Shown here: piece after piece, positions 16,068 through 63,082 of the stretch
How positions within the stretch are numbered: position 1 is the first letter of the stretch
Layout: every line of letters starts with the position of its first letter
Assembly (NCBI RefSeq): GCF_900114485.1
Contig: NZ_FOTF01000009.1
Location: 62,001 to 126,000, forward strand
Reading direction: 5' to 3'
DNA: 64,000 nt
Origin: Loktanella salsilacus
Lineage (GTDB): Bacteria > Pseudomonadota > Alphaproteobacteria > Rhodobacterales > Rhodobacteraceae
Program-made: the position numbers and the translations under genes
Notes under the pieces: model-generated
The model's input: only the letters and a program-made list of their open reading frames with translations
Databases searched by the model: none
What the model was told of the DNA's origin: nothing

Positions 16068-16517
16068 GTCAATTAAATGCAAATGTTCAGTAGGACCTAT
16101 AAGCTTAAAGAGATGATCATATAATGTTTAGAAATATAAGTTCTTAATGCGCGCTCATTTTTACCTTTATAAGTTAGGGTATCTGTAGTCGCACCTTACT
16201 TGTGACATGTCGAAACGCGGCTTCGCCAAAACGATCTTAAACATATTTAGTACACAATATTCCTCCGCCGAAAATGAAATGCCACGTCACCAAACCACGC
16301 TCAGCAATAGATTGAGAAACGCGATATCCTCAGATTAATTGTACATAGGCATCAGCCCTATACAGGCAACTGGCGAAAATATTAATTTGCCTCCGCTGCT
16401 CACGACAACAGCTTCTTTCGACTTTCAAAAATTAGGCACAGTATCGCGTTTTACGGCTTGTTCTATAAAGTGTTGATTTTGGGACTCCCAATAACACTAC
16501 AACCAACTGAAACCTGC
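16068..16517. other. AT-rich intergenic stretch without a recognisable gene
   Basis: About 450 bp between the GSCFA gene and the hairpin before phoD. It is low in GC with many short stops in all frames. I see no tRNA, repeat or clear ORF. Confidence 0.5.
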
Positions 16518-16550
16518 CGTCCCGGACGGCCCAGCAGGCCGCCCGGGACG
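16518..16550. terminator. Strong hairpin, probable bidirectional terminator
   Basis: A 14-bp stem pairs CGTCCCGGACGGCC (16518-16531) with GGCCGCCCGGGACG (16537-16550), with one A/C mismatch (a G-U wobble on the other strand) and a 5-base loop. A T-rich tract follows on the plus strand. It lies 9 bp beyond the phoD stop and ends the minus-strand gene. Confidence 0.7.
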
Positions 16551-16559
16551 TAGTTTTAT

Positions 16560-45635: not shown

Positions 45636-46192
45636 GCTTCGTTGTCGTGCAATTCTGCCGCGCACGCGGGCCGACTTTGCCAAAGCCGGCACAGTGGCAA
45701 TGAGGCGTGTTCGTGCCTGCATCAATCCATTGAGTTTACTTTGGAACGGGCAGTCGCGGGAAGGCCACCGTCGCGGTCGTCGGCACGTTTCAGCTGTCGC
45801 TCGCAGCATCAACCGTGGATCCAAAAACCTATTCATTTGCGCCACGTTTTCAACGACGCAAACTTACAAAGTCACGTTGGACCGATAAACAAATCCGCAC
45901 ATTTTAAACATAACAGGACGCGGCTTTGTGGAATACGAACCATCGCCTAGGCCGCAGCCCGCCCAGCATGAATGATCGGTGGCAGATTATGATACATCTC
46001 GACCGCGCATGCGTTGCACAAAAATACGGCTGACATATACTTTTGGACAGAACTCGAAATATGGATTGGCAGCCGACGAAACATTATGCTACGTCAACAC
46101 AATTATTACGTGAGTATTTAACTTTTCACATTCGTCGCCTTCTTACGAAGGCATACTGCTCAGCCACCGAATTTTCAGGAGCGAGCCTAAAT
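45636..46192. other. Long intergenic region upstream of the Crp/Fnr gene
   Basis: About 550 bp. The first half is GC-rich and the second half (from 45880) AT-rich. Short ORFs exist but none has a convincing start or family. It may hold the crp-like promoter. No hairpin with a T-run was found after pcaB. Confidence 0.4.
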
Positions 46193-46909
46193 ATGAGTTT
46201 CGATAGAACGCCGCTTATGCGCCGGCTTGGCGGAGCCGTTCCTGAAGAGGAATTGGAGCTGTTTGATTCGCTGGGGCGTATTGGAAAAAAATACGCAATC
46301 GGTCACGACCTTGGCGAAGAATGCCGGGCCGATGAATCGATCATGATCCTGCAACATGGCTGGACCATGACCTATAAAATACTACGCGGCGGTGATCGAC
46401 AGGTCATCGACGTCAACTTGCCCGGCGACGTACTCGGCATGCGGCAAATCCTGTTCAATTACGATGACTACCGCATTGAACCCATTACCGAGGTATTTGC
46501 GCAAAAACTGCCCGCTGATATTATTCTGCGTTCTTTGGGGAAATCGCCTGAAATTGCGGCGCAGGTTATGTGGGCGATGATGTCAGACTCTGCCTTTTCG
46601 CCGGAACGTTTGGTCAGCATGGGCCGCCGCGAGGCCCCGAAAAGGGTCGCGCATTTTTTGCTAGAACTTGGGGCCCGACTGGATCGGGTGCATTTATCTA
46701 ATAAGAATGGGTATTTATGCCCGCTTTCGCAGACAGACCTAGGTGATATCTTGGGCATGAGTGCGGTCCACGTGAACCGTGTTCTGCGCGATTTAAGAGA
46801 GCGGGACCTGCTAACTTTTCGTATTGGAAAAGTGAAATTCCATGACCGGGAAGAGCTTAATCGATATGCCGAATTCGAGCCATCCTATATGGAGCGCCGT
46901 TTGCATTAA
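46193..46909 (+). CDS. Crp/Fnr-family transcriptional regulator
   Basis: 238-residue regulator with an N-terminal cyclic-nucleotide-type beta barrel (about 30-130; MTYKILRGGDRQVIDVNLPGD) and a C-terminal winged helix (PLSQTDLGDILGMSAVHVNRVLRDLRERDLL). It lacks the N-terminal cysteine cluster of FNR, so it does not appear to be an oxygen sensor of that type. I chose the ATG at 46193 with AGGAG 10 bp upstream; an in-frame ATG at 46043 adds an unlikely leader. It is convergent with the polysaccharide genes, 15 bp apart. Confidence 0.85.
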   Translation: MSFDRTPLMRRLGGAVPEEELELFDSLGRIGKKYAIGHDLGEECRADESIMILQHGWTMTYKILRGGDRQVIDVNLPGDVLGMRQILFNYDDYRIEPITEVFAQKLPADIILRSLGKSPEIAAQVMWAMMSDSAFSPERLVSMGRREAPKRVAHFLLELGARLDRVHLSNKNGYLCPLSQTDLGDILGMSAVHVNRVLRDLRERDLLTFRIGKVKFHDREELNRYAEFEPSYMERRLH

Positions 46910-46924
46910 ACGGTCGCGGGATAC

Positions 46925-47746
46925 CTATTTCTGGAATGTCTTGCACCGCAGCACATATCCCCGGCTTTCGCTGCGACCAAGCCACGGATGCGTCGAGATA
47001 ACGTGGCCCAAATCCGGGATATTCCAGCTATCCAGAATGTCATATCCCATGACATTGATTTGCGCCTCGAATATGCTTCGGTTGCGCATGCGATAGGGCA
47101 CGCAGCCTGCTCCGATCTTTTCGATCGTATAAAGCTCTGGCCCGTCTCGTAGAGCCACCTTGTTAAGAATGATATATTCGGGCCGATCGGGCAAGGTTGC
47201 GACGAAGTCTGGAAATGCGATATCCTGATATTGCAGCAGGCCTGAACACAGCAGGATCTGCGCCGCTGGCAGCGTTGTCACATCAGTATGAAACGCGATT
47301 TCGACTGGCAGGCCGCCGCGACCTTGGCGGCGACGGGCGGCGTGGACGATTGCGGGCAGATCGTAAACATTCCAGCGGATCGGCCGCAGATCTATCAGGT
47401 CTTGGAACGCGATATATTTCGTGCCGAAATGTCCGCCTGCATCAATCAAAGCGTCGGCATCAGGCAGAAAACGTTGCAGCCAGAACATCACCGGATAGTC
47501 CCACGCGGTGCGCTGACACATCAGATCGAATGACACTTCTGAAATGGCCGCGTCGTCGTACCCTTGCCCGCCGCGCCGGATGACCGCCTCTTGCGCGGCA
47601 GCGCGGGTGTCAAAGGCACCGGAAAAGTGCCGCGCCCGCGGCGTGCGCGTGACCGCCCGCGCGATGGCGGCACCTGGTAGGGCCCTCGCTTGGCGCAGGA
47701 CCGCGCGCAGACGTTTGCCAAGGCGGGGCGATGCGGAAACGGTCAT
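46925..47746 (-). CDS. TIGR04325-type methyltransferase-like protein
   Basis: 273 residues, resembling the TIGR04325 family of putative methyltransferases found in surface polysaccharide clusters. The core shows ALIDAGGHFGTKYIAF (a Rossmann-like loop, degenerate relative to classical SAM motifs), WNVYDLPAIVHAA and YIILNKVALRDGPELYT. The start at 47746 overlaps the flippase stop by 4 bp, so it is the last gene of a sugar transferase-flippase-methyltransferase operon. Real methylation is unproven for the family. Confidence 0.75.
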   Translation of the reverse strand: MTVSASPRLGKRLRAVLRQARALPGAAIARAVTRTPRARHFSGAFDTRAAAQEAVIRRGGQGYDDAAISEVSFDLMCQRTAWDYPVMFWLQRFLPDADALIDAGGHFGTKYIAFQDLIDLRPIRWNVYDLPAIVHAARRRQGRGGLPVEIAFHTDVTTLPAAQILLCSGLLQYQDIAFPDFVATLPDRPEYIILNKVALRDGPELYTIEKIGAGCVPYRMRNRSIFEAQINVMGYDILDSWNIPDLGHVISTHPWLGRSESRGYVLRCKTFQK

Positions 47747-49260
47747 GACAAAGTTCCTTGCTGTACGGGATCAGGGCGAAAAGCCGCCGCGATTTGGTCC
47801 CAGAAAGGCCGGTCCAGCAGCATGAGCGCGATCACATAGACACCGCCGCTCATAAGCCCGAAGGCCACCGCGCGCACCAACTGGGGCCAGTCAACGCCAA
47901 TTGGGCTGGCGCGCAGGACAAGAAGCGTAATCAGACCCAAAGTCAGGGGCAAAACCGTGCTGCGCAAGGCCTTCGCAATCCCGGCTAGCCCAATATTGGC
48001 ATGACGCGTAAACAGGTGCAGCGTCAGCAGCATGATCCCACTATTCACCGCCAGCTGCGACCAGGCCAACGTCATAACCCCCAGCGGGGCTGCGACGCAG
48101 GTCGCCCCAACCGAGACCGCAAAAATAATCGCCGTAAAGGCCGGCAGCCGCCGCGTCTGGCCGCAGATCGACAACAGCGGTTCAGTCAGGATACCCGGCA
48201 GCATCAGAATCGGACACAGCGCTAGAATAGCGACCAGAACGCCTGCAGGCTGCCATTCCGGCCCCAGCAACCCGGCGACGATTTCGCCATGCATGACGCT
48301 AAGCCATAGGAACAGCGGTGTGCCGATGGCCATCAGGACCTTTAGGTGCCGGGCGACCTGCTGCTCTATCCGCGCGGCGCGGCCCTCGACCTGGCCAGCG
48401 TCACGGGCCCGGCGCAGCAGGGTCCAAGCCAAAAGTTGTCCGGGCACAGCGACTAGCTCATAGGCCGCACCGACCAGACGCTCTGCCACGCGGAAGTAGC
48501 CGACAGCGATCGGTCCTAGGAAAGCGCCTAGCGCCAGCGTTATGAAATGAAGTCGCACGTTGATCAGCATCCGCGATGACAAAATCTGCACCGAGAAGGT
48601 CCAAAGCTCTTGCCGCACGGTGGCAGGCAGGCCCCATGCGGGGATGCGGCGCGTGATGGCAAAACTTAGGATCAGCGCGGTCCCTTGATAGGTTAGCCGT
48701 CCATAGACGAGCGATAGCACCCCGGCTCCTTGAAACAGGCAGATCACTGTCACTGCACCGCCGACCAACTCGCTTGTGATTTCGATAATGGCGGCGGTTT
48801 TGATCCGGTTCAGCCAGATCAAAACCCCCTTTTGCGCGGTGAAAACAGTCGCCAACGCGATCCACAGGCAAAAGAGCATGGATAGCGCGGTCAAATCAGG
48901 CGCAAGCCCGAAGCCCTTTGCCGCCTGCGTTCCCGCAAAGCCGACAGCGGCGAAGGCAAAGCCGCTTAGAACTGCGATCATGACGACCTGATAGGGCGTA
49001 TTGTCCCCGTCGGACCGCGTCATGATAAAGGGGGCCCACCCCGCCTCGGCCAGACGCAACAGCAAGATGGCGCAGGCCGACACGATAGCGAAGGTGCCAA
49101 ATTCCACCGGCCCCAACAAACGCGCGGCGAGTACAAACACCGCGAATTGAGAGACTTGGGACACCAGACGCTCTGTCACCGTGACGGCAATGTCGCCCGC
49201 TGTCTTGCGGCCCGCATTTAGGGCTGGGCCCTGCCCTTTGGGCGAGCGATCAGTATGCAC
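47743..49260 (-). CDS. Polysaccharide flippase (Wzx/MATE-like fold)
   Basis: About 505 residues with 12 to 14 hydrophobic helices, an oligosaccharide flippase of the MOP superfamily that would move lipid-linked sugar repeats across the inner membrane. The first helices, VSQFAVFVLAARLLGPVEFG, show the typical LLGPxxFG pattern. The GTG at 49260 has GGGGA upstream and overlaps the sugar-transferase stop by 11 bp. A further upstream TTG at 49284 is an alternative. Confidence 0.85.
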   Translation of the reverse strand: MHTDRSPKGQGPALNAGRKTAGDIAVTVTERLVSQVSQFAVFVLAARLLGPVEFGTFAIVSACAILLLRLAEAGWAPFIMTRSDGDNTPYQVVMIAVLSGFAFAAVGFAGTQAAKGFGLAPDLTALSMLFCLWIALATVFTAQKGVLIWLNRIKTAAIIEITSELVGGAVTVICLFQGAGVLSLVYGRLTYQGTALILSFAITRRIPAWGLPATVRQELWTFSVQILSSRMLINVRLHFITLALGAFLGPIAVGYFRVAERLVGAAYELVAVPGQLLAWTLLRRARDAGQVEGRAARIEQQVARHLKVLMAIGTPLFLWLSVMHGEIVAGLLGPEWQPAGVLVAILALCPILMLPGILTEPLLSICGQTRRLPAFTAIIFAVSVGATCVAAPLGVMTLAWSQLAVNSGIMLLTLHLFTRHANIGLAGIAKALRSTVLPLTLGLITLLVLRASPIGVDWPQLVRAVAFGLMSGGVYVIALMLLDRPFWDQIAAAFRPDPVQQGTLS

Positions 49261-49984
49261 CGCGTCCCCGCAAAACAACGCCAACCGTACGCAGCAGGAT
49301 TTTCAGATCCCCCCAAAGGGAATGCTGCCGTGCGTATTGCACATCAAGCGCGACCCGTTCGTCATAGCTGGTATCGCTGCGCCCGCTGACCTGCCACAGG
49401 CCGCTGATCCCCGGCCGCACCGACAAGTAGTGACAGAAATCGTCGCCATAATTCACGATCTCGCTCGTCGTGATAGGTCGCGGCCCGACAAGGCTCATGT
49501 GGCCCATCAGCACGTTAAACAGCTGCGGCAGCTCGTCCAGACTGGACCGGCGCAGATAGCATCCAATAGGCAGGATGCGCGGATCATGGCGTAACTTTTG
49601 GGTCTGCACCCATTCGCGCAAATCGTCGGGATTGGCCTTGAGATGGGCGGCCAGCACGTCGTCTGCGTTCACACACATGCTGCGGAATTTCAGGCATTGA
49701 AAGCGAACGCCGTGGCGTCCGATCCGGGTGTGGCGAAACATGATGGGACCGGGATGGAAGATCGCAAGCACCGCTATGATCAACAGCATCGCCGGCAGAA
49801 AAAGTAAGAGCAAAAGGCTAGACGCGATGACGTCAAAAGCCCGCTTTCTGCGGTCAGCTTTGCCCCAATCTGCTCTGGCCTGATCGGTCGGAGACACCGC
49901 CTGAAGTGGAGCAGACGGCAGCGGGACAGAATGGACGACTTTTGCTGTCGTCATAATCGTTCGTAGGTTTAAATTAGTAGACAC
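49250..49984 (-). CDS. Undecaprenyl-phosphate sugar phosphotransferase (ExoY-like)
   Basis: 244-residue initiating sugar transferase that would start a repeat unit by placing a sugar phosphate on undecaprenyl phosphate. One N-terminal membrane helix ([20 protein letters not shown]) is followed by the catalytic domain with [37 protein letters not shown] and the C-terminal [14 protein letters not shown]. It resembles ExoY/PssY more than WbaP. The GTG at 49984 with GGGGGAA upstream is preferred over the ATG at 49954. Confidence 0.92.
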
Positions 49985-50257: not shown

Positions 50258-50416
50258 GTGCGTCAGACAAATCGCGACACGGCCTTAGCGCCAGACGCCA
50301 AGCCGCAAGTGGCCTTGGCGGGTTGGACAGCGCAGCGCGGGTTTGCCCTGCGATTGGCAGCCGTCGTGTTTTGCGTCGCTGTGTGGTCTGCTGTGATCTA
50401 TTGGGCATTGGCCTGA
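50258..50416 (+). CDS. Small single-pass membrane protein (52 residues)
   Basis: Short ORF not recognised as any family. A GTG start is preceded by a full GGAGG Shine-Dalgarno 8 bases away. The N-terminal half is polar (VRQTNRDTALAPDAKPQVAL) and the C-terminal half is one helix (FALRLAAVVFCVAVWSAVIY, then WALA). Its stop overlaps the convergent NRPS gene end by 19 bp. The strong ribosome site and clean topology argue for a real gene. It might support the neighbouring polysaccharide or NRPS functions, but nothing shows which. Confidence 0.6.
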   Translation: MRQTNRDTALAPDAKPQVALAGWTAQRGFALRLAAVVFCVAVWSAVIYWALA

Positions 50417-53232
50417 TCCTTTTCACCGGACGCAGCATCGTCGAACGTCTGCAGCAACGCTTCGATTTTTGTGGCCGCGTCAGCAATACCGCGATTGCGC
50501 CCCTGCTCGGCCGACACATCGGGCAGATAAACCGTTTCCATCGGACCGGTGATCAGATCGCCCCAGCCCATCGTCGTGTCAAACCCTGCGCCGCGCGGTG
50601 AATCGTTCGTGACAATGTGCAGCACCCGCCCGTTATACGGCTTTGGTTCATGGACATCGCGCGCATCTGTCAAATAGGCGATAAAGGCTTCCTGTTCGGC
50701 CTTCAGGTCAGTGTAGCGCACCCGTTCCATCAGCCCCAGGCGCACGGCCGCATTCAGCAAACCGGTTGCCCGGATCAGGCGAAAGGTGCCAAGGAACGCC
50801 GGCACGGACATCGTACCCTGCGCCACGCGGTGCAGGCGCACCTTTAGGAAATGCAGCCGATTGCGCCAACGCGTTGACCAGCTTGCATCGACATCGCGGG
50901 CATATTGCGGGGCCCAGACGTCTTTCATGATCACGGCGGCGACCTCTTCTCCCTTGGCCTGCAATTGGCGTGCAACCTCGATCGCAAGGTTGCCGTGCAC
51001 GCAGATGCCGAACAGGGCGTAGGGACCGTGCGGCTGGGCAGCTTGCAGCGCCTCAAGGAACTGGGTCGCGATCTGTTCAAACGGGCGCGGGTCTAGTGTG
51101 TGCCCCTGTGCCTTATCGTAGATGCGCAGCGACATGGCCGGACGCGGCACACTCATGTTATCGGCCAGCGCATAGGTGATGTTGGCGTTGTTGATCGCCA
51201 CAAGCGGGATCCCCGTGCCATCCTCTTGCAAGGTGACCACGCGCCAGTCCCGCTCTGCCGCGAGGCGAGAGGCTGGCTTTTGGCCTCGCGCCAAGTGGCG
51301 AGCCAAGGTGCGCAAAGTTGGGTTCTGGAAAACGTCGGCCAAGGTCATCCGGTGGCCAAATTCAGCCTCGATGCGCGCCAGAAGGCGGACAATCAGCAAC
51401 GAATGGCCGCCCAGATCAAAGAAGCTGGTCGTCTGCGGTACGTCCTTGATGCCCAGAACATCGGACCAGATCGGAACCAACCGCGCGGCAATATCAGCGA
51501 CGCTATCGCCGGAAACCGCCTCTGCCCCTTGCACGCCTGCGGGCGCCGCCCCGACGGCGGCGGCCAGTGGCAACTGCGCCTTGATGACACGCCCGCCCGC
51601 ATCGCGTGGCAAAGACTGCAAAATGCTGATCCCGTCCACCGACAGGGCTGCGCCAAGGTGCGTGTGCAGCAGCCCCGGCAGCACCTCTAGCGGCATCAGC
51701 GCTGCGTCCGGTGCTAGGGTGACAAAGGCATGGCGTGCACGGCGGCCGCCTTGCGCCGCATAGGGCACGACGGCGGCAGCTGCGACGCTGTCATGGGTCT
51801 GCAAGGCGGCCTCTATCCGCGACAACTGCAGCGCGTCATCGGTCCGGGCTTGCGGGCCCTGCGACAGGTGCGGCATATCCGACAACAGGCAGTCTGGATG
51901 ATCGAAGGCCAGCGCAAAGCACGATTGCCACAGATCAATAAGCTCTTGCGCCGTGGCGGCATCGAACATGTCCGAATTGTATTCTAGCGTCATCCGCCAG
52001 CCGCTGCTGCGGCCGATTAGTGAAAAATTCAGATCGTGCAGCGCGCCGGGCGCGTGGGAAGGTGCGCTGGATAGCGTAAAGCCGCCGTATTGCGCCGTTT
52101 CCATAAAGACGTTCTGAAGCAAATAGTTAACCGACACCAATGGCGTGCGAGACGCATCGCGGGCGGGGTTTAACGTCTCAACCAGTTTGTTGAACGGCAC
52201 TGTTTGTCCGATCAGCGCATCGGTGACCGCATGGCGGGCGCGGTCCAGATGATCGCCTAGCGATGTGTCGCCCGCTGTCGCAAAACGCAAGACGACGGTG
52301 TTGATGAACACACCGATCAGCGGCTCCAGCTCGACTTCGCTGCGTCCAGCGACCTGCGATCCTAGCAGCACCTCTGGCGCATCAGCGCAGCGGGCCAGCA
52401 ACGCGCTTAGAACGCCCGCGCCATAAGCAAAGGTCGACATGCCGCGCTTGCGGGCTTCGGACTCCAGCCTTTTGCCCCATGCGGGTGACAGATCCGCTGT
52501 TACGACCGCACAGGCGGTGCTGCGCTGAAGGGGCCTTGGAAAATCTGGTGGCACCTCGAAATAAGGTGCGTCGCGCAGTTGATCACAGACCGGGCCTAGT
52601 TCGGCAGCGAAAGCCTCGCTGTCGAAATAGTCGGCCTGCCACAGGGCGTAATCGCCAAATTGCAGGGCCAGTTCCGGCAGTTTTGCTGTCCGCCCCCCAT
52701 CCAGCGCTGCGGCAAAAGTGCCAACTTCGCGCCCAAGCACCCCGATGGACCAGCCGTCAAAACAGATGTGATGCACGGTGATCGCTAGCACCGCATGGTC
52801 ATTGCCAAGGCGGATCAGGACCACGCGCAGCTGACAAGGCTCTGTCAGATCAAAAGGTTGCACGGCGCTTTCGCTGGCAATCTGATCAATGCGGCTTTGC
52901 TGCTCTGCTGCCGGCGTGTTGCGGATGTCGATGTCCGACAGTTTAAAACGGGCTTGCGGGGCCACCTCTTGGACCGGGCGATCCTGATCCGCGACAAACC
53001 GTGTCCGCAGGGATTCATGGCGGGCTATGACTGCCTGAAACGCGGCCTCGATTGTGGCGGCGCTAAAGGTGCCGTTGATGTTCCACCGAAAGGCCACGTT
53101 CAGGGCCGGATCCCCGGGGTTCATCTGATCCAGAAACCAGAACCGTTCCTGGGTCGCGCTGCAAGGAAAGCGCAGCGGTGCAGCCTCTGGCGCGGGGGTC
53201 GTTAATGGCATGGTATCGACAGGGGCGGTCAT
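50398..53232 (-). CDS. NRPS terminal module: C, A C-terminal subdomain, T, TE
   Basis: 944 residues. Condensation domain at about 20-440 with VHHICFDGWS (second His is residue 155) and SRTPLVSVNY. Residues about 460-575 match only the C-terminal part of an adenylation domain (an A10-like GGRVIKAQLP ends it); the A core with its TSGSTG and YGPTE motifs is absent. The carrier domain has DLGGHSLLIVRLL (phosphopantetheine Ser611). Residues about 670-930 form a type I thioesterase. Its nucleophile motif reads LFGICVHGNLA, with Cys744 in place of Ser. The Asp after the next strand is present (AAVIMKDVW), but I do not see the conserved His near the C-terminus. The ATG overlaps the upstream gene stop (ATGA). 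Confidence 0.9.
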   Translation of the reverse strand: MTAPVDTMPLTTPAPEAAPLRFPCSATQERFWFLDQMNPGDPALNVAFRWNINGTFSAATIEAAFQAVIARHESLRTRFVADQDRPVQEVAPQARFKLSDIDIRNTPAAEQQSRIDQIASESAVQPFDLTEPCQLRVVLIRLGNDHAVLAITVHHICFDGWSIGVLGREVGTFAAALDGGRTAKLPELALQFGDYALWQADYFDSEAFAAELGPVCDQLRDAPYFEVPPDFPRPLQRSTACAVVTADLSPAWGKRLESEARKRGMSTFAYGAGVLSALLARCADAPEVLLGSQVAGRSEVELEPLIGVFINTVVLRFATAGDTSLGDHLDRARHAVTDALIGQTVPFNKLVETLNPARDASRTPLVSVNYLLQNVFMETAQYGGFTLSSAPSHAPGALHDLNFSLIGRSSGWRMTLEYNSDMFDAATAQELIDLWQSCFALAFDHPDCLLSDMPHLSQGPQARTDDALQLSRIEAALQTHDSVAAAAVVPYAAQGGRRARHAFVTLAPDAALMPLEVLPGLLHTHLGAALSVDGISILQSLPRDAGGRVIKAQLPLAAAVGAAPAGVQGAEAVSGDSVADIAARLVPIWSDVLGIKDVPQTTSFFDLGGHSLLIVRLLARIEAEFGHRMTLADVFQNPTLRTLARHLARGQKPASRLAAERDWRVVTLQEDGTGIPLVAINNANITYALADNMSVPRPAMSLRIYDKAQGHTLDPRPFEQIATQFLEALQAAQPHGPYALFGICVHGNLAIEVARQLQAKGEEVAAVIMKDVWAPQYARDVDASWSTRWRNRLHFLKVRLHRVAQGTMSVPAFLGTFRLIRATGLLNAAVRLGLMERVRYTDLKAEQEAFIAYLTDARDVHEPKPYNGRVLHIVTNDSPRGAGFDTTMGWGDLITGPMETVYLPDVSAEQGRNRGIADAATKIEALLQTFDDAASGEKDQANAQ

Positions 53233-55364
53233 GCTGTCGCCCCCGCGCCGCGCCGCGCGCCATTGCGGAAATCCTTCAAGGACGGTGCCTTAGGTTTTGC
53301 CGCGCGGGTTTGCATCAAGGCCGCAGCCCCTGCGATGGTCGGGGCCTGCATCAGATGACGCGCCTCTAGCCCCAGATCGCGGTCTAACATCCGCGCCGCA
53401 ATGCGAAAAATGCCGAGCGAGTCGATGCCCAGATCAAACAGGCTGTCATCAATGCTAAGCTCGTCCAGCCCCAGTACGTCCTGCCAGATCGCGACAAGAT
53501 CACGCTCTAGTTCTGTTTCGGGTGCTCGGACACGGCGGCCCGCGTCGGTTGGTGCCGCGGCAACCAGCGCAGGCAAGGCGCGGCGGTCCAGCTTGCCGTT
53601 ACCAGTTTCGGGCAGCGCGTCGATGGCCTGCAGGCGCTGCGGCACCATATAGGCGGGCAGTTTCGCGGACAGGGCTTTGGTGATCTCAGCCGGCTGCGGG
53701 GCATCCGTATCGGCGACATAGAAACCAGCCAGCAACGAACCTGTCGGCCCTTCGCGCAAATCCACGGCGGCGGAGCGGATGCCGTCCACGCTGCGCATGG
53801 CCGCTTCAATCTCGCTCAGCTCTATACGGAAGCCGCGCAGCTTGATCTGACCGTCGCGCCGTCCCAGCAGGCGGATCGTGCCGTCCGGCAACCGCTGTGC
53901 CAGATCGCCGGTACGGTAAAGCCGTGTCGGCCCCGCGCCGGGGACATCGACGATACGGTAGGCGGCGTCCGTCAGATCAGGCCGGTGAAGATAACCAATG
54001 GCAAGGCCGGCTCCGCCGATGTTCAACTCTCCCGTCACGCCGGGCGGCACCAGGTTTCCGGCGTCGTCCATGACGTGCAACACTGTGTTCGCGATAGGAT
54101 CGCCAATGGTGACATGGCCGTCCGTGACACGACCGCAAGACGACCAGATCGTTGTCTCTGTCGGGCCGTACATATTCCAGACCTCGCCGCCAAAGGACAC
54201 CAGCCGTTCGGCAAGATCACGCGGAAGCGGCTCGCCTCCGGTTAGGATTTTAAGCGTCGGCATTGGTTTCAGCCCCGCCTCTAGCAGCATTTGCCACAAG
54301 GTCGGCGTGGCTTGCAGCACGGTGATGTCGCCCTGCGCCAAACGGTCGACCAGCGGGAATGCTTCGCGCACGTCCGAGTCCGTCGCGATCACTGTCTTTG
54401 CACCGACGGTCAGCGGCAGGAACAGCTCTAGCCCTGCAATGTCAAAGCTAACCGTGGTGACGGACAGGATCGCATCGCTTGCCGACAGTCCGGGGCGGTC
54501 GGCCATCGCGGTCAGGAAATTCAGCAGCGCGCCGTGCGACACCTCTACGCCCTTGGGAGTCCCGGTCGAGCCGGAGGTGAAGATCACATAGGCCGCGTCT
54601 TCGGCAGAGCCGCCGCGGTGCAGCTCGTCCAGTGTGGCATCAGGATAGCTGGCGCTGGCGCGGATCGCGGCAAGGTCCAATCCGCTGATCGCGTCAGTCA
54701 CATCGCCGTCGTAGATCAACCCGGCGACACTTGCTGCCGTCAGCGTCGCGCGGTGGCGCGCGACGGGGTGATGCGGGTCAAGCGGCACGTAGGCATGTCC
54801 GGCCTTCAGCACAGCCAAAAGCGCCACCAGCATATCGGCAGAGCGTTCCACCATCACAGCAACCCTCTGGCCGTGCTGCGGAATCTGGCGGCGGATTTCA
54901 GCGGCCAAGCGGTCGCTTTGCCGGGCCAGCGTGGCATAGCTGCGCGGCCCGCCTGCGTCCTCAACAGCGATGGCATCGGGGGTTGCGGCGGTTTGCGCCG
55001 CGATCATCTGTTCCAAGCGCGCGTGCTTTGGCGGGACCTGGCCAGTATCGTTACCCATGGCGGCCAGTTCGGCGGCCTGCGCCGCACTTATCAGCGGCAC
55101 CGCTTGCAAAGGGGTCTGCATATCGCGGGCTGCGGCTGCGAGTACGGATTGATAATGCTCGCACCAGCGGGCTACGGTATCCGCGTTCAACACGTCTGTT
55201 GCATAGGTCAGATCGATACGCAGGCCTTGGCGGCTTTCGGTGACGTTAAAGATCAGATCAAAGTTGGTATAGGCGCGCGGGTTCGACGAAAGTGTCGCCG
55301 CGATCCCGTCAAAGCCGAAATCAGCGGGCTGTTGGTCAAGGTTGAACTGAACTTCTGTCAGGGG
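53229..55364 (-). CDS. PKS-NRPS middle gene, 3' part (end of C, A, T), in frame after TAG
   Basis: Continues the frame of the 55365-61094 gene after a single TAG. It first completes the condensation domain (PLTEVQFNLDQQ onward, about 100 residues). A full adenylation domain follows, with YVIFTSGSTGTPKG, NMYGPTETTIW, YRTGDLAQRLPDG and GNGKLDRRAL. A carrier domain follows with FDLGIDSLGIF. Specificity residues read by alignment to GrsA are D-I-L-Q-L-G-M-I-W-K, one change from the glycine code, so glycine is predicted. The only candidate internal start (GTG 55193) has no ribosome site and would omit part of the C domain. The stop overlaps the next gene by 4 bp. Confidence 0.85.
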   Translation of the reverse strand, partial: PLTEVQFNLDQQPADFGFDGIAATLSSNPRAYTNFDLIFNVTESRQGLRIDLTYATDVLNADTVARWCEHYQSVLAAAARDMQTPLQAVPLISAAQAAELAAMGNDTGQVPPKHARLEQMIAAQTAATPDAIAVEDAGGPRSYATLARQSDRLAAEIRRQIPQHGQRVAVMVERSADMLVALLAVLKAGHAYVPLDPHHPVARHRATLTAASVAGLIYDGDVTDAISGLDLAAIRASASYPDATLDELHRGGSAEDAAYVIFTSGSTGTPKGVEVSHGALLNFLTAMADRPGLSASDAILSVTTVSFDIAGLELFLPLTVGAKTVIATDSDVREAFPLVDRLAQGDITVLQATPTLWQMLLEAGLKPMPTLKILTGGEPLPRDLAERLVSFGGEVWNMYGPTETTIWSSCGRVTDGHVTIGDPIANTVLHVMDDAGNLVPPGVTGELNIGGAGLAIGYLHRPDLTDAAYRIVDVPGAGPTRLYRTGDLAQRLPDGTIRLLGRRDGQIKLRGFRIELSEIEAAMRSVDGIRSAAVDLREGPTGSLLAGFYVADTDAPQPAEITKALSAKLPAYMVPQRLQAIDALPETGNGKLDRRALPALVAAAPTDAGRRVRAPETELERDLVAIWQDVLGLDELSIDDSLFDLGIDSLGIFRIAARMLDRDLGLEARHLMQAPTIAGAAALMQTRAAKPKAPSLKDFRNGARRGAGATA

Positions 55365-55367
55365 CTA
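55365..55367 (-). other. In-frame TAG interrupting the condensation domain
   Basis: The codons run GAT GTA TCA CGT TAG CCC CTG ACA GAA. The flanks read DVSR-stop-PLTEV, matching the conserved C-domain SRxPL motif. The paralogous domain at 50398-53232 has SRTPL at the same place. No frameshift is involved. A change from TCG (Ser) would need one base. Options are a point mutation, a sequencing error, or readthrough. Confidence 0.9.
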
Positions 55368-58300
55368 ACGTGATACATCGCCGCGATCTGCCAACCCATG
55401 CACGATGGTGCCATAAGTCGTGTCGCCGTGGTCGAAACAGTCCAGCACGCGGGTGGATACGGCCTTCAGGTGGTCGGCCAATGTTGTGTCCGCGTCCGTC
55501 GCGACCTGCAGCCGCACCGGCAAAAGGTTGACGCAATGACCCACCAGACGGTCATCAGGCAAGAGCGTTTGCCCGGCAGTTGGCACCGCCAGCGTGATAT
55601 CGTCCGACCCGCTGAGCCGGGACAGCAGCGCCGCCAGTGATCCGGCCAGCGCGCCGAACAGCGTCACCCCCTCGCGCCCGGCAGCACGCTTGAGCGTTTT
55701 GGCAAGATCCGCGTCAATCAGATGCACATGCGTCGCCCCGGCGAAACTGCGCTGACCATCGCGGCGGGTATCTAGCGGCAGCTCTGGCAGGTCGGGGGCC
55801 TTTGGAAAGGTCGCTTTCCAAAATGTATCGGTTGCAGCGCTGGGGGTGCGGTCACCATGACTACAAGCATAGGCCGCAAAGCTGGCAGGCGGCGGCAGAT
55901 CGGCCTGCCCGCCCTGCACAGCGGCGTTATACAGCGCCGCCAGCTCTTCGATCACCAGATAGCTGGACCAACCATCACAGACGATGTGGTGCATCGTGAA
56001 TAACAGAACATGATCGTCCGGTGCCAGCCGCGCAAGCGCCGCGCGAATAAGCGGGCCGTCCGTCAGATCAAACGGCATTGCAGCATCGGCCGCGATCAGG
56101 TTGTCCAGACCGTCTTGGTTCACGTCAATAGGGTCTAGCGTCAGGGACAGCGCTGGCATGACCCGCGCCGCCTGACCAGAGGCGTCAAAGGACAGGCGCA
56201 GCGCGTCGTGCCGTGCGATCACTTTATTCAGCGCGGTCTGTAGCGCCTTTGCATCCAGATCGCCCTGCAACCGCAGACTGGCGCTTTCGATGAACACGCC
56301 AGAGGCGGCCTTGCCCATTTGCGCGGACATCCAGACCTCTGTCTGCGGCGCGGTTAGTGGGATGGTGTCGGTGCCAGTTTTCGTTGTGGGCTTTGTACCC
56401 TTTGGGTCATCGTCCGTGCTGTCACCGGTCAAAATGCCCACGGACTGCAGTTGATCCAAAGCGTCCGCAAAAACCATTGCCACGTGTTTAAAATCATTTT
56501 GGGTATGGGCGGTCGTGAAAAACCAAGGATAGCCGTCGTGCACGTGCACCCCGCCCAGACGCATCATGGGGTGGAGCAGCGCGGCGCGCGGATCAAGAGA
56601 TGACAGGTTGACGATCATCCAGCTGGAAAAGCCGATAATCGCAGGCGGCAGACCGCGCGCCTGCAATGCGGCATTCATCTGGTCGCGTAGCGCTTCAGTC
56701 TGCGGGGCGATGCGGTCATACAGCGCCGCACCCGGCCCTGCGACATGGTCAAGCACGGCAGAGACCGCCGCCAGCACCAAAGGATGCCGCACAAAGGTGC
56801 CAGCAAAAAAGGTCGGCGGCACCTCTGGTGCGCTATCATCGCCAAAGGACCAGAAGCCGCCATCAAGGGCGTCAAGGAACCGCTTCGATCCCGCCAGCAC
56901 ACCAACCGGCATGCCGCCGCCAACAACCTTGCCATAGGTCGCCATATCCGGGGTGATGTTCCACAACTGCTGCATCCCGCCCGGGGCCACGCGGAAACCG
57001 GTGACAATCTCGTCCATGATCATCGCGGCGCCGCAAGCGGCGGTAATACGGCGGATTTCCTCGCAAAACGCGCGGGGGCGGTGGTCCGGCCTGCGGCTTT
57101 GCACGGGTTCGACCAGTACCGCGGCGATGTCGTCCGCGTTATCTTGAATCCAGTTCAGCGTGTCCTGCGTGCCATAGGTTAGCACGACCATATTCGCGAC
57201 CGAAGAGGACGGTACGCCCGACACAGCAGGCAGCGCCGTTGGGTCGCCCGACGCGCGGCCTTTGACCAGCACCTCGTCGAATTGGCCGTGGTAGTCACCT
57301 TTGAAGGTCACAATTGTCTCTCGCCCGGTGACCGCGCGGGCAAGGCGCATAGCGGCCATCACCGCCTCTGATCCGGTGTTGCAGAACGTAGCGCGGTCGT
57401 GACCGGTAATGGCAAGGAATTTTGCTGCAACTTCGTGGGCTAGCGGCGTTTGCGGGCCGATGGGAAATCCTTTGGCCATCTGGGCGCTGACAGCGTCGGT
57501 CACAAAGTCTGGCGAATGGCCAAATGCAGTCTGACCAAAGCCGTTGACCAGATCGATAAACTGGTTGCCATCCGTATCGGTCAGGTAAGCGCCTTTTGCC
57601 GTCTCGGCGATCACAGGAAACACCAGTTCTTTCCATTCGGGGCGAAAGCCAGCGGCGGTGCGGGGATCGGCAAGTTTACGGCGGTAATCCTGCGTCCGGG
57701 ATTTTGATGTAGGAAACTTGGCGCTGTAGTCATCGCAAAGCGCGGCAATAAAAGCCGTCTGCGCCGGAGTAAAATCAGCAAGCTGGGCCGCACGGCGGTT
57801 CAAATCGTGGCGCGTATCAGGTGCATCTGCAGATGCGGCGACGGGCGGGCGGCCTTTTGGCGCAGCGGCAGGTGCCAGTGGCGCTGTTGTCATCGCGGCC
57901 GCTGCGGGGGATGCGCTGGCGAACGTGCGAAGCTGGGTGTCAAAAAGCGATAGCATCGCTTGCGTCTGCGCCTGCATCAACCCGGCCACATCGCCCGATA
58001 CAGGCACGGCTGGCGGGACAGGTTGCGCCGTTGCAGCAGTGGATACCGGGGCCGGGGTTGGTGCTGTCGCGGCCGCGGGCGGCGGTGCCACTTCGGCCGG
58101 AAGAACATCGTCCAGATGTGCCACCAAAACCGCGACACTTGGGAAGGCCCCCATCAACTGGCGAAAGGTCAGTGTGACATCAAAGGTGCGGGCCAGCCGC
58201 TGGGTGACTTGCCCCAGCAGCAGCGAGTCGAAGCCAAGCTCTAGAAAGGTGCAATCGGCGTCGGCGGCGGTAAAGCTGTCGCCGGACAAATCCGACAGAA

Positions 58301-61094
58301 TGGACAGGACTTGTTCAGTCAACGTGTCCGTGCGGGAAACGGTGGTCATGATCGGTTCCTCAGGCTTTGTATTCGAAATTTGCGGTGACATGATGGGCGC
58401 GGCGTACGCGGCCTGCTGGCGGGCCTGCGGCACAGGTGGGTCGATCCAGTGGCGCGATTTCTCAAACTGGTAACCGGGCAGGCTCGTCCGCCGTCCCGGC
58501 ACTGTGCGGTTGGCCGCCCAGTCGACAGCGCCCCCAGCGGACCAAAGCGCACCGACAGCGCCCGCCATTTGCGCAGCGTCGCCCGCCGGATCGTCGTGAT
58601 CGGGCAGCGACTGAATGATGGCAGCGCGGGCATCTTTTGCCACCGCCTGTGCCGCAAATGCGCTTAAGGTGCGGCCGGGGCCGACCTCTATCAATGCGGG
58701 CGGCTGGCTGCCGGCGCAAAGCGTGCGGATGCCAGCGTCGAAATCGACGGCAGCGCGGCAGTGCTGTGCCCAATACGCGGGATCTGTGGCTTGATCGTCG
58801 GTGATCCAGGTCCCCGTCACGCAAGAGACATAAGGGATGCGCGGCGGCGCAAAGCTGTGGCGCGCGGCCTCAGCCTGAAGCGCGGTGGCGACAGGATCCA
58901 TCATGGCAGAGTGGAAGGCATGCGAGGTATGCAGCTCTCGGCAAGGGATATCCTGCGCGCTAAGCTGCGCCGCAAGGTCCGCAATCGCGTCCAATGGACC
59001 AGCAAGGACTGTCATCTGGGGCGCGTTGCGGGCGGCAATGTCGATGGTGTCCGGTAGCAGGCCAATCAGCGCATCAGTGCCCGCGCGCACGGACAACATG
59101 GCGCCCGGCGGCTGGTCCTGCATCAGTCGGCCCCGCGCGGCGATCAAGGACAGACCAGTGTCGAACGTCATAACACCGGCATGGGTCGCGGCGGCAAATT
59201 CGCCAACCGAATGGCCGATCATCGCACTTGGCCTAACGCCGCGGTCCAGCCACAACTGCGCGGTGGCGTATTCGATCAGATAAAGCGCGGGCTGCGTGAT
59301 GGCGGTGTCGCGCAGAACACGGGCGGCGGCCTTGGGGTCGTCACTGCGATAGATCAGCTCTGCCAGATCAAGGCCAAGCGCGGGGCGCAGGGCCTCGCTG
59401 CCAGCGTCGATGATTTTGGCGAAGGCGGGTTCAGTGGCGTAAAGCCCCTGCCCCATGCCCGGATATTGCGCGCCCTGCCCGGGAAACATGAATGCGACGG
59501 GCGGCGCGTCCTTGGCCGCTTTCACTGCGCGCATTGGCGCGCGCAGGGCTGCTGCGGCCTCGCAGGCCGTGGCGGCAACAACATGGGTGCGCAGATCAAA
59601 GGCGCGGCGGCCCTCTTGCAAGGTCAAAGCAACGTCTGCCAAAGGCGGCGCATCCGGTGCATCAAGGGCATCCGCCAGCGCAAGGGCTTGGGCCGCCAGC
59701 GCCGTATCCGTGCGGGCGGATAAGGGCAGAATGTGAAGCCCGCCATCGGGGCTTGGCACTGGCACAGGCGCTTCCTCTAGCACCAAATGCGCATTGGTGC
59801 CGCCGACCCCCATAGAGGAAATGCCAGCGCGCAGCGGTCCGGCCTCTACCCAAGGGGTCGCGATTTGCGGAATGCGGAACGGGCTAGTCGCAAGATCAAT
59901 CCGAGGGTTCGGCGAGGTATAGTTTGCAAGCGGCGGGATGACCCTGTCATGCAGCATCAGCGTCGTCTTGATCAGCCCCAACACCCCTGCAGCGGCATCG
60001 CAATGGCCGATATTCGCTTTGCTGGACCCCAGCGCGATACGGCCCTGATCGACGCCTGCAAAGGCCTGCTTGAGCCCTTCAAATTCAATCGGATCGCCTA
60101 GGGGCGTGCCGGTGCCGTGGCATTCAACATAACCGATGGACCCAGGGTCCACGTCGGCAATGCCCTGCGCCATCGCAATGACCATGGCCTGACCCGTCAC
60201 GCTGGGCGCGGTAAAGGCGATCTTGTCATTGCCGTCATTGTTCAGCGCACTGCCGCGAATGACCGCATAGATCCGGTCGCCATCCGCCAGCGCGTCCTCA
60301 TACCGGCGCAGGACCACAACGCCCGCGCCGTGGCCAAAGACCGTGCCCGTCGCAGACGCATCAAAGGGGCGGCAGTGACCGTCATGGGACACCATCCCGC
60401 CCTCTTGATAAAAATAGCCGCGTTCTTGTGGAAATGTAATCGACACGCCGCCCGCGATCGCCATGTCGCAGTGAAACGCATCAAGGCTTTGGCAGGCCTG
60501 CGTCACCGCCACGAGCGATGTCGAACAGGCCGTCGAGACGGTTAATGCAGGCCCGGTCAGACCCATGCGGAACGCGACACGGGTCGCCAAGGTGTCACCC
60601 ATCGCCCCCATGAACTGCTGGTAATCGCCCAGCTGATAGGTGGATACGAAATCCTCTATCGTGGCGCGATCAGTCAGCACGTTGTTCAGAAAATAGGTCG
60701 GCATCGAAGCGCCGCCAAAGACGCCCACAGGCCCCGGTACACGGTCCGGGTCATAGCCCGCATCCTCCATCCCCTGCCAACAGGTTTCCAAAAAGACCCG
60801 GAATTGCGGGTCAAGCAGGGCGGCCTCGCGCGGAAGCATGTTGAAGAATGGCGCGTCAAACATCGCCGCATCGTCAAGCGACGGGCGCACCGGCACATAG
60901 TTTCCACGCGCCCGTTCTGCGTCGGAAAAGTTGTCGGCCAAGGCGTCAGTGTCGTGGCGGCGGATTAGGTCACGGCCATCGCAAATGGCCTTCCAGTAGG
61001 CGTCAATCGACTCTACCCCCGGCACACGCGCCGCCATACCGACAATCGCGATCGTTCCGGGCTCTGCCTGGGCAGGAATTGAATCTTTCATCAT
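55365..61094 (-). CDS. Hybrid PKS-NRPS, 5' part: KS-AT-ACP-aminotransferase-C (stops at TAG)
   Basis: 1909 residues. Ketosynthase (1-430): STACSTS with Cys190, ECHGTGTPLGDP and NIGHCDAAAGV. Acyltransferase (about 530-830): GQGAQYPGMGQG, IGHSVGEFAAA with Ser629, and HTSHAFHS, the malonyl-specific form. ACP (about 920-990): LGFDSLLLGQ with Ser957, then an Ala/Pro linker. Class III PLP aminotransferase of the GSA type (about 1120-1540): MDEIVTGFRV and TYGKVVGGGMPVG with Lys1389. Condensation domain from about 1570: MHHIVCDGWSS (His1703), cut at the TAG. No KR, DH or ER is present, so the beta-keto group is left for transamination. This order resembles the iturin/mycosubtilin core. The start overlaps the loading gene stop (ATGA). 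Confidence 0.93.
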   Translation of the reverse strand: MMKDSIPAQAEPGTIAIVGMAARVPGVESIDAYWKAICDGRDLIRRHDTDALADNFSDAERARGNYVPVRPSLDDAAMFDAPFFNMLPREAALLDPQFRVFLETCWQGMEDAGYDPDRVPGPVGVFGGASMPTYFLNNVLTDRATIEDFVSTYQLGDYQQFMGAMGDTLATRVAFRMGLTGPALTVSTACSTSLVAVTQACQSLDAFHCDMAIAGGVSITFPQERGYFYQEGGMVSHDGHCRPFDASATGTVFGHGAGVVVLRRYEDALADGDRIYAVIRGSALNNDGNDKIAFTAPSVTGQAMVIAMAQGIADVDPGSIGYVECHGTGTPLGDPIEFEGLKQAFAGVDQGRIALGSSKANIGHCDAAAGVLGLIKTTLMLHDRVIPPLANYTSPNPRIDLATSPFRIPQIATPWVEAGPLRAGISSMGVGGTNAHLVLEEAPVPVPSPDGGLHILPLSARTDTALAAQALALADALDAPDAPPLADVALTLQEGRRAFDLRTHVVAATACEAAAALRAPMRAVKAAKDAPPVAFMFPGQGAQYPGMGQGLYATEPAFAKIIDAGSEALRPALGLDLAELIYRSDDPKAAARVLRDTAITQPALYLIEYATAQLWLDRGVRPSAMIGHSVGEFAAATHAGVMTFDTGLSLIAARGRLMQDQPPGAMLSVRAGTDALIGLLPDTIDIAARNAPQMTVLAGPLDAIADLAAQLSAQDIPCRELHTSHAFHSAMMDPVATALQAEAARHSFAPPRIPYVSCVTGTWITDDQATDPAYWAQHCRAAVDFDAGIRTLCAGSQPPALIEVGPGRTLSAFAAQAVAKDARAAIIQSLPDHDDPAGDAAQMAGAVGALWSAGGAVDWAANRTVPGRRTSLPGYQFEKSRHWIDPPVPQARQQAAYAAPIMSPQISNTKPEEPIMTTVSRTDTLTEQVLSILSDLSGDSFTAADADCTFLELGFDSLLLGQVTQRLARTFDVTLTFRQLMGAFPSVAVLVAHLDDVLPAEVAPPPAAATAPTPAPVSTAATAQPVPPAVPVSGDVAGLMQAQTQAMLSLFDTQLRTFASASPAAAAMTTAPLAPAAAPKGRPPVAASADAPDTRHDLNRRAAQLADFTPAQTAFIAALCDDYSAKFPTSKSRTQDYRRKLADPRTAAGFRPEWKELVFPVIAETAKGAYLTDTDGNQFIDLVNGFGQTAFGHSPDFVTDAVSAQMAKGFPIGPQTPLAHEVAAKFLAITGHDRATFCNTGSEAVMAAMRLARAVTGRETIVTFKGDYHGQFDEVLVKGRASGDPTALPAVSGVPSSSVANMVVLTYGTQDTLNWIQDNADDIAAVLVEPVQSRRPDHRPRAFCEEIRRITAACGAAMIMDEIVTGFRVAPGGMQQLWNITPDMATYGKVVGGGMPVGVLAGSKRFLDALDGGFWSFGDDSAPEVPPTFFAGTFVRHPLVLAAVSAVLDHVAGPGAALYDRIAPQTEALRDQMNAALQARGLPPAIIGFSSWMIVNLSSLDPRAALLHPMMRLGGVHVHDGYPWFFTTAHTQNDFKHVAMVFADALDQLQSVGILTGDSTDDDPKGTKPTTKTGTDTIPLTAPQTEVWMSAQMGKAASGVFIESASLRLQGDLDAKALQTALNKVIARHDALRLSFDASGQAARVMPALSLTLDPIDVNQDGLDNLIAADAAMPFDLTDGPLIRAALARLAPDDHVLLFTMHHIVCDGWSSYLVIEELAALYNAAVQGGQADLPPPASFAAYACSHGDRTPSAATDTFWKATFPKAPDLPELPLDTRRDGQRSFAGATHVHLIDADLAKTLKRAAGREGVTLFGALAGSLAALLSRLSGSDDITLAVPTAGQTLLPDDRLVGHCVNLLPVRLQVATDADTTLADHLKAVSTRVLDCFDHGDTTYGTIVHGLADRGDVSR

Positions 61095-63082
61095 TGGTTC
61101 CTTTGCCTGTTACGGGCGCGGGCCATTTCGGCGCGCCGCGCGGCGAGCGGATCAACAGCATAGGCCAAAGTCTCGGCTGGGGACGGTGACGGCCCCTCTA
61201 GCAGGCGGACAAGCGCGCGAACCCGAGGGGCCTGAAACATCAGGGCGATATCGAACGACCGACCAATGCGGTCCTGCAAAAGCGCATGCGCCTCGATCAG
61301 TTGCAGTGACGTGCCTCCGTGATCAAAGAAGGTCAGGTCGTCGTCGTTGATCGTTGTGTCCAGAACACCGGCCCACACGCTGCGGATTGTACCGGCCAAC
61401 GTGATTGGGACAGGATGGCCGAGTGGGGCCGGTGTCTGAACCTCTGATAGACCCTGCGCAAGTTGCTTGCGGTCCACCTTGCCCGACCGTGACAGCGGGA
61501 AGGCGGATTGCAGGATCAAACGGGATGGAATGGAGGCTGCAGGCAGGATTTCACGCAGACGGTGCAAGATTTCTTGCACCGCGACGTGCTGGCCTTTGGC
61601 CGGAATAGCGAAAGCGACAACTTTTTTGCCGCCCCCCAAGCGCGGGATTGCGACTGCGGCCGCATCATCAACCGCAGGGTCCTTGCGCAGGGCATGTTCT
61701 ATTGTATCAAGCTCTATCCGTTGGCCGTTGATCTTGATCTGCCGGTCGGCGCGGCCATGGAATTCAAACACACCGTCACTGCGCTCGCGCACCAGATCGC
61801 CAGTCAGATAAACCCGTACGCCGTCCGCGTGATCCAAATTCACAAAAGCCGCGTCGGTCAGATCAGGCCGGCCAAGATAACCCAAGGCTACGCCCTGCCC
61901 GCCCACTGCCAACTGCCCCATCTCGCCTCGCGGTACGGGGCGCAGGTTGTCGTCCAGCACAAAGCGTATGTCGTGGTTCAGGCCGCGCCCGATTGGGATT
62001 GGACCGCCGTCCCATTCGTCCGGGATGGTGTGAAAGCAGGTAAAGACAGCGGCCTCTGTTGGGCCATATCCGTTGATGATGCGCACATGCGGCTGGGCGC
62101 GGCGCACCGTGGCCACATGCGCAGCCGAAAGCACGTCACCGCAGGGAATAACGGATTGCAGCGGGGCCAGCAGCGCGGCGTCCTGTTCTGCAATAATGTG
62201 AAACAACCCTGCCGTGATATAGGCCGTCGTGACACCGTTGCGGGCGATGATGCTGCCAATCCGGTCAAGCGAAGGAGCCGCCTCTGGGACGACAACCAGC
62301 ACGCCGCCATTGAGCAGCGCACTGTAAATCTCGCCCAAGATCACGTCGAACCCGACGGAAGCCAGGTTCAGAACGACTTGTTCATGTCCAAGCGGCACAT
62401 AATCCTGCCCCCGAACCAAGCGGCAAATGCCGCGATGCGGGACCATCACGCCCTTGGGATCCCCGGTCGAGCCGGAGGTATAGATAACATAGGCGCGGTC
62501 TTCTGCGCCGATCCGAGAATGCGGATCGTCCTGAAAGACGCGCAACGCAGGGGCATCTGGTGCCGGTTCCAATGGCAGGGTGATCGCCTGACCTGTCAGC
62601 GCTGCTGCCTTTTCCTGAAATGCGGCCTGGCAGACAATCGCCTTCGGCTGGACGGCAGATACGACCGTCTTGCGGTATTGATCTGGCGTTGCCGGATCAA
62701 GTGGTACAAACGCGGCACCCAAGGCCATAATAGCCAGCTGCGCCGCGACCGTTTCAATGCTGCGCCCCGCCAGAATACCCACAAGGTCGCCCTTACGGAC
62801 GCCCGCGGACTGAAGCGTTTGCGCGATCGTGCCAGCCAGACGGGATAATCCGTCATAAGTCAGCTGGCGATCGTCTTGGATAATGGCGATCCTTTGACCT
62901 CGATTAGAAACCTGAGTAAAAAACAGGTCGCATATCGAGGCCAAAAGATCCGGGCTCTGTGTAATATCATTTACGTTCTTAAATTGCGCTCGAGTTGGCA
63001 AAGCTTCCCCCTTCGAACGGTTGAGCCGCTCGTCAAATCCATTAGTAAAAATTCCTTGTCGCCCAAAAAATATGGGCTGCAC
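61091..63082 (-). CDS. NRPS loading module: A-T
   Basis: 663 residues. Adenylation domain (about 50-560): YVIYTSGSTGDPKGV, NGYGPTEAAVF, YLTGDLVRERSDG and SRSGKVDRKQL. Carrier domain with FFDHGGTSLQLIEA (Ser592). There is no condensation domain, so it starts the chain. The Asp in VGFDVILGEIYSALL is the amino-group anchor of the binding pocket, implying an alpha-amino acid. The remaining pocket residues (V, G, then C, G, V, F) match no code I recall, so the amino acid is unassigned. The GTG at 63082 has a weak ribosome site; a TTG at 63001 follows GAAGGGGGAAGC and may be the true start. It is first in a three-gene operon. Confidence 0.9.
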   Translation of the reverse strand: MQPIFFGRQGIFTNGFDERLNRSKGEALPTRAQFKNVNDITQSPDLLASICDLFFTQVSNRGQRIAIIQDDRQLTYDGLSRLAGTIAQTLQSAGVRKGDLVGILAGRSIETVAAQLAIMALGAAFVPLDPATPDQYRKTVVSAVQPKAIVCQAAFQEKAAALTGQAITLPLEPAPDAPALRVFQDDPHSRIGAEDRAYVIYTSGSTGDPKGVMVPHRGICRLVRGQDYVPLGHEQVVLNLASVGFDVILGEIYSALLNGGVLVVVPEAAPSLDRIGSIIARNGVTTAYITAGLFHIIAEQDAALLAPLQSVIPCGDVLSAAHVATVRRAQPHVRIINGYGPTEAAVFTCFHTIPDEWDGGPIPIGRGLNHDIRFVLDDNLRPVPRGEMGQLAVGGQGVALGYLGRPDLTDAAFVNLDHADGVRVYLTGDLVRERSDGVFEFHGRADRQIKINGQRIELDTIEHALRKDPAVDDAAAVAIPRLGGGKKVVAFAIPAKGQHVAVQEILHRLREILPAASIPSRLILQSAFPLSRSGKVDRKQLAQGLSEVQTPAPLGHPVPITLAGTIRSVWAGVLDTTINDDDLTFFDHGGTSLQLIEAHALLQDRIGRSFDIALMFQAPRVRALVRLLEGPSPSPAETLAYAVDPLAARRAEMARARNRQRNQ

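Follow-up and report, generated by a model that had tools for sequence, protein, structure and literature searches.

The DNA analysed here (the window) is a 64,000-nucleotide stretch of Loktanella salsilacus on a contig of 184,482 bases, taken from a single draft assembly (4.13 Mb, 76 contigs). It carries a hybrid type I PKS-NRPS with an aminotransferase, in which KS, AT, T, AMT, C, A and T domains were found and the C domain is interrupted by an in-frame stop codon. The assembly-line genes and the genes beside them are as follows.

61091..63082, minus strand: A-T loading protein, 663 aa (Pfam AMP-binding, AMP-binding_C and PP-binding)
55365..61094, minus strand: upstream part of the PKS-NRPS, KS-AT-T-AMT-C with the C domain cut off, ending in TAG (Pfam, translation)
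55365..55367, minus strand: in-frame TAG inside the condensation domain; all 84 homologs that span the site have a sense codon
53229..55364, minus strand: downstream part of the PKS-NRPS, with the end of C, an A domain (DILQLGMIWK, Gly-type) and T, ending in TGA (Pfam, translation, code)
50398..53232, minus strand: C-T-TE release protein, 944 aa (Pfam, motifs, ORF coordinates)
49250..49789 (ORF start possible up to 49984), minus strand: undecaprenyl-phosphate-type initiating sugar transferase (PF02397, ortholog extent)
47743..49260, minus strand: Wzx-type oligosaccharide flippase (PF13440/PF01943, 9 TM-like segments)
46925..47746, minus strand: TIGR04325-family methyltransferase (TIGR04325, 138.6 bits against a cut-off of 80)
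46061..46909, plus strand: Crp/Fnr-type regulator at the cluster edge, membership uncertain (PF13545, ortholog annotation)

On the minus strand the A-T, PKS-NRPS and C-T-TE genes overlap by 4 bases each, the start of the upstream PKS-NRPS part overlapping the stop of the preceding A-T gene. The upstream part (55365-61094, 1909 aa plus TAG) and the downstream part (53229-55364, 711 aa plus TGA) share one reading frame, and translation shows the TAG at 55365-55367 to be the sole break in the 7866-bp PKS-NRPS frame. The upstream product ends in DVSR and the downstream product starts with PLTEVQFN, while the next gene has SRTPLVSVN. Because the Pfam Condensation profile (456 columns) matches over columns 3-344 upstream of the TAG and 365-455 downstream of it, the break lies inside the C domain. 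The initial annotation had described much the same picture, namely one frame divided by a single TAG within a condensation domain, about 2.1 kb left open past the stop with intact A and T motifs, and no ribosome site at the first usable start of the downstream half. The translations and the ORF list agree with its coordinates, frame and motif reading. The first start codon 3' of the TAG is GTG 55193, and reading by eye revealed nothing resembling a Shine-Dalgarno sequence in the 20 bases ahead of it. The 711-codon in-register frame with intact A and T is not a product of chance, given that orthologs are single genes over this region.

We compared the codon at the TAG site, as the initial annotation had proposed, across a set of 85 loci comprising the best 80 of 195 relatives (one genome per species) and five plasmid loci, both L. 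salsilacus loci among them. One locus (L135) does not reach the site. The codon is sense in all 84 that span it, and the reading frame then stays open for at least 684 codons, with five of the 84 frames ending at a contig end. An organisation of the halves as two genes of their own, which the initial annotation had named as refuting its reading, was rejected, as none of the 84 loci is so arranged. The two same-species copies lie on 512- and 598-kb plasmids of L. salsilacus 1A07899 and 1A07893 (WP_254249398.1 and WP_254252999.1), and these records hold the cluster at 97.7% DNA identity to the window over 24.7 kb, with the same gene order and neighbours. Whereas the window's gene is broken by the TAG, each plasmid carries one uninterrupted annotated CDS of 7872 bp, with a sense codon at the site that is one base away from the window's TAG. 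A RepA match was absent from the window's contig; the homologous L. salsilacus regions sit on plasmids. Across 295 genomes of the window's taxonomic family, 12 (its own included) gave a match to the AMT-C region with E no higher than 1e-150, and in none of eight congeners was the downstream half matched over nearly its full length. Judged by these matches, the PKS-NRPS cluster is accessory and scattered within the family.

Among the window genes compared, the break is confined to this one. Of 48 annotated NZ_CP072995 genes compared with the window, one was cut at the window edge and 47 were scored; all 47 align over their length, and an internal stop occurs in the PKS-NRPS gene alone. General assembly damage was accordingly rejected, with 1 of 47 compared genes affected. 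The 47 genes end in TGA (24), TAA (18) or TAG (5), so TAG is a normal stop here, as the initial annotation had held from the GSCFA gene, pcaB and the antiporter; it also ends the C-T-TE gene of the same cluster.

We assessed how codon changes are distributed around the TAG in a three-way comparison with two relatives. After the TAG, changes private to the window comprised 10 nonsynonymous and 19 synonymous ones, against 7 and 36 private to either relative (p = 0.09); before it, the counts were 12 and 40 against 15 and 81 (p = 0.27). For the PKS-NRPS gene as a whole, the changes private to the window numbered 22 nonsynonymous and 60 synonymous against 84 and 406 in 45 other genes, a weak difference (p = 0.045) that belongs, like the two preceding ones, to a series of five Fisher tests for relaxed selection whose p values are nominal and borderline at best. 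In the 45-gene comparison it is probably the pooled counts of the relatives, not those of the window, that are swollen by a gene broken in 1A07893. A gene of unassigned function at window positions 12797-14542 is intact here and in 1A07899 and looks degraded in 1A07893, where the best match (L187, about 15111-17050) covers 35% with 8 stops and no CDS is listed. The nonsynonymous share after the TAG is far below the neutral expectation (P 1.6e-5 with equal rates, 1.7e-4 when transition-weighted), which argues that selection acted on the frame through most of the branch. On codon counts of this kind, either the TAG could be young or the downstream half could still be translated.

Reassignment of TAG was considered through the release factor and the tRNA set. 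RF1 is present (prfA match of 467 bits, over the cut-off), and an alternative code or loss of RF1 was rejected on that basis together with the use of TAG as an ordinary stop in the window. No CUA anticodon occurs among the 43 tRNAs detected, a set with at least three gaps: Tyr, Ile(GAT) and Ala(TGC). Looking for a suppressor tRNA, as the initial annotation had suggested, gave a negative result within an incomplete set, and such a tRNA is unlikely in the window's strain. A tRNA-Tyr was not found by anticodon-arm pattern searches of the strain's own genome and of the genus, by ARAGORN on the matches (run on 3 of 3 and 21 of 29 Tyr-type pattern matches) or by a scan of wider stretches. A laxer tRNA family search gave four extra matches, all below the cut-off, and no further tRNA gene was called around the three of them that fell within stretches then scanned (L238-L240). 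Either tRNA-Tyr lies in an assembly gap or the loose first look missed it. The three tRNAs went undetected in the draft despite its stated completeness of 100; those for Ile(GAT) and Ala(TGC) may be missing because rRNA operons were left unassembled.

The initial annotation had left three options for the TAG: recent silencing, a sequencing error, or read-through. Recent silencing is best supported, because the difference is a single private base, the frame is otherwise intact and the relatives are uninterrupted; for read-through we saw no positive support, given RF1, the ordinary use of TAG as a stop and the lack of a CUA anticodon among the tRNAs of the incomplete set, and a sequencing error is possible but less likely. 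These comparisons make a young nonsense mutation the most likely origin of the TAG, one private to the strain among the loci seen. A base error in the assembly, with the gene whole in the living strain, would fit a stop seen in one draft of 76 contigs, separated from its relatives by one base and set in a gene whose remainder looks functional. Against it, none of the other compared window genes has an internal stop or a shortened match, and the private changes in the 45 other genes, 84 of 490 of them nonsynonymous, do not make the assembly look rich in errors; we regard such an error as unlikely, although it is the rival to which we give most weight.

Low-level read-through of the TAG by a near-cognate or suppressor tRNA, yielding a little full-length enzyme, has on its side the purifying selection on the downstream frame along the window's branch, the gaps in the tRNA set and the base directly 3' of the TAG, a C, which makes a leakier stop context. 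A reading of this kind sits poorly with a stop at the site in none of the 84 homologs, with the presence of RF1, with a TAG that ends five of the 47 genes including the cluster's own C-T-TE gene, and with the lack of a CUA anticodon among the 43 tRNAs, and we consider it very improbable. Less credible still is a division of the enzyme into two functional polypeptides, KS-AT-T-AMT in shortened form and an independent A-T on which translation restarts beyond the break. Starts do exist past the TAG, and one of them, ATG 55007, immediately precedes the A domain and has a short GGAA a few bases ahead of it. The C domain itself, however, is cut (between Pfam columns 344 and 365) so that neither part has a whole one, the first starts lack a clear ribosome site, and this organisation is without a parallel in the 84 homologs; we accord it next to no weight.

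Under a young nonsense mutation, translation would stop inside the C domain, which would lose its last quarter while retaining HHIVCDG (residue 1702) and would be physically parted from the Gly-type A-T module that it should serve. A chain begun by A-T, then extended and transaminated by KS-AT-T-AMT, could not be joined to glycine, and the downstream A-T would be left without a good start of its own. The C-T-TE gene, whose start codon ATG shares bases with the TGA that ends the lost half, probably loses its translational coupling too. The pathway would then be off in the window's strain.

We considered what the uninterrupted line is likely to make. Read by eye, the motifs of the KS, AT, AMT, A and T domains are ordinary ones. 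The AT domain has HAFH, which we take as malonyl-type; in another PKS, IAFH has been taken to suggest malonyl-CoA (PMC3908369). The A domain of the loader has the code DVGYICGVFK by motif reading, and the first A domain code varies across the loci. The second A domain code, by contrast, begins DILQ in 81 of 84 matched loci (one of the 85 gave no match). We take a DILQ code to denote glycine. The loader is a separate gene in the window (61091-63082) and in a Rhizobium locus (L026, 4187-6103), and by CDS length it seems fused to the PKS-NRPS in Rhodobacter sp. CZR27 (L024, 351-10346) and Jannaschia sp. M317 (L025, 4504-14082); frame lengths suggest that both forms recur among the loci.

The release protein departs from a standard module. 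The C-T-TE protein has no A core in the window or in any of the four relatives scanned, and a weak piece of the C-terminal A subdomain remains in the window and in one of those four (in the window an AMP-binding_C remnant of 20.8 bits, under the cut-off of 24.5). The usual thioesterase nucleophile is Ser. In the window this position is Cys (GICVHG, residue 744), as it is in all 77 loci with a resolved residue (eight of the 85 had none), and 4zxh, the closest solved match, likewise has Cys there in the alignment. The last C domain reads HHICFDG in the window, HQxxxDG in at least 61 and HNxxxDG in at least eight of the 85 loci. As most relatives have the second His of HH replaced (HQ or HN), the last C domain may condense in a non-standard way, and release may differ from an ordinary condensation. 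A plausible product of the intact line is a C2-extended chain that has been transaminated to give a beta-amino acid and then coupled to glycine.

The assembly line lies within a set of polysaccharide genes, on which the initial annotation is silent. Besides the genes listed above, the window and the adjoining stretch (L028) encode three glycosyltransferases, a phosphopantetheinyl transferase, and Wzc-like and Wza-like proteins. They also hold a multi-TM protein with no Pfam match, whose ortholog in another locus (L022) has 9 TM-like segments and which we would guess to be Wzy. The sugar transferase scores below the cut-offs of the WbaP and EPS_sugtrans models. The Crp/Fnr-type regulator is annotated at 717 bp in 1A07893 against 849 bp here.

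To compare neighbourhoods, taken as about 10 kb around the genes, we scored 11 gene classes, with queries drawn from the window, L028 and four plasmid loci. Of the 71 family loci that span 20 kb or more, 64 had at least three classes (67 of 80 when all family loci are counted). None of 20 control loci, taken at other NRPS genes in related genomes, had as many (14 had none, three had one and three had two); as the queries come from the family's own loci, dissimilar polysaccharide genes in the controls may be missed by this count. None of five other stretches of the window's contig held three or more classes. Two of the 11 classes (multi-TM and GINT1-like) are uncharacterised and were taken from the family itself. 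After these were dropped, at least two of the stricter nine classes were present in 66 of 71 family loci against three of 20 controls, and at least three in 21 of 71 against none of 20; four of the 71 had none of the nine. Among the 80 family loci, a GINT1-like protein occurs in 50, a GH16 hydrolase in 41 and a polysaccharide pyruvyl transferase in 41. Genes of these three kinds lie in the Rhizobium locus (L026, 253-1473, 2966-3886 and 16763-18364), with matches in other loci; L028 and L022 showed none of the three.

Judging from this neighbourhood, the PKS-NRPS family may decorate an exported polysaccharide. Strains with a whole gene would most likely make a beta-amino-acyl-glycine unit, which would be attached to, or travel with, the Wzx/Wzy-type exported polysaccharide encoded alongside. 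We hold as probable the explanation taken whole, in which a young private nonsense mutation has turned the pathway off and intact strains make a glycan-linked beta-amino-acyl-glycine. The TAG would be an ordinary strain-level loss of function, and it decides the annotation, which should be that of a broken allele and not of a split enzyme. The window's strain and L. salsilacus 1A07899 and 1A07893 also form natural strain pairs for product discovery.

The family is more interesting than its TAG. The fixed second A domain and release chemistry, together with the glycan export genes, suggest a class of peptide-polyketide-decorated surface polysaccharides, which if true would be relevant to biofilms and to contact with hosts in rhizobia and roseobacters. 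More tentatively, and with less than even confidence, we propose that this alphaproteobacterial family makes a conserved acyl-glycine that decorates exported polysaccharide, that an A-less last module with a Cys-thioesterase or its C domain passes the chain to a sugar, and that the window's strain is a natural loss-of-function mutant for which the intact conspecifics are controls.

The family is apparently widespread, being found in Rhizobiales and Rhodobacterales, and undescribed; no paper on it was found by title or the start of the abstract, in a search that most subscription journals lie outside. Its setting resembles that of WcbR/RkpA of capsular polysaccharide clusters, type I PKS genes described as located inside polysaccharide biosynthesis and export clusters of Rhizobiales, Burkholderia and Nitrosomonas (PMC3908369). 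In contrast to the genes described here, the passages on WcbR/RkpA mention no NRPS or aminotransferase modules (PMC3908369). The sugar transferase, flippase, multi-TM protein, glycosyltransferases, and Wzc-like and Wza-like proteins alongside also recall Wzx/Wzy-type exopolysaccharide loci, from which the three-gene PKS-NRPS and the phosphopantetheinyl transferase set this cluster apart. Among assembly lines, MycA of mycosubtilin and McyE combine KS-AT-T-AMT and then C-A-T in one protein. The PKS-NRPS of the window shares this order with them. It differs in belonging to a three-protein cluster that includes an A-T loader, a Gly-type A domain, an A-less last module and a Cys thioesterase and has polysaccharide genes as neighbours.
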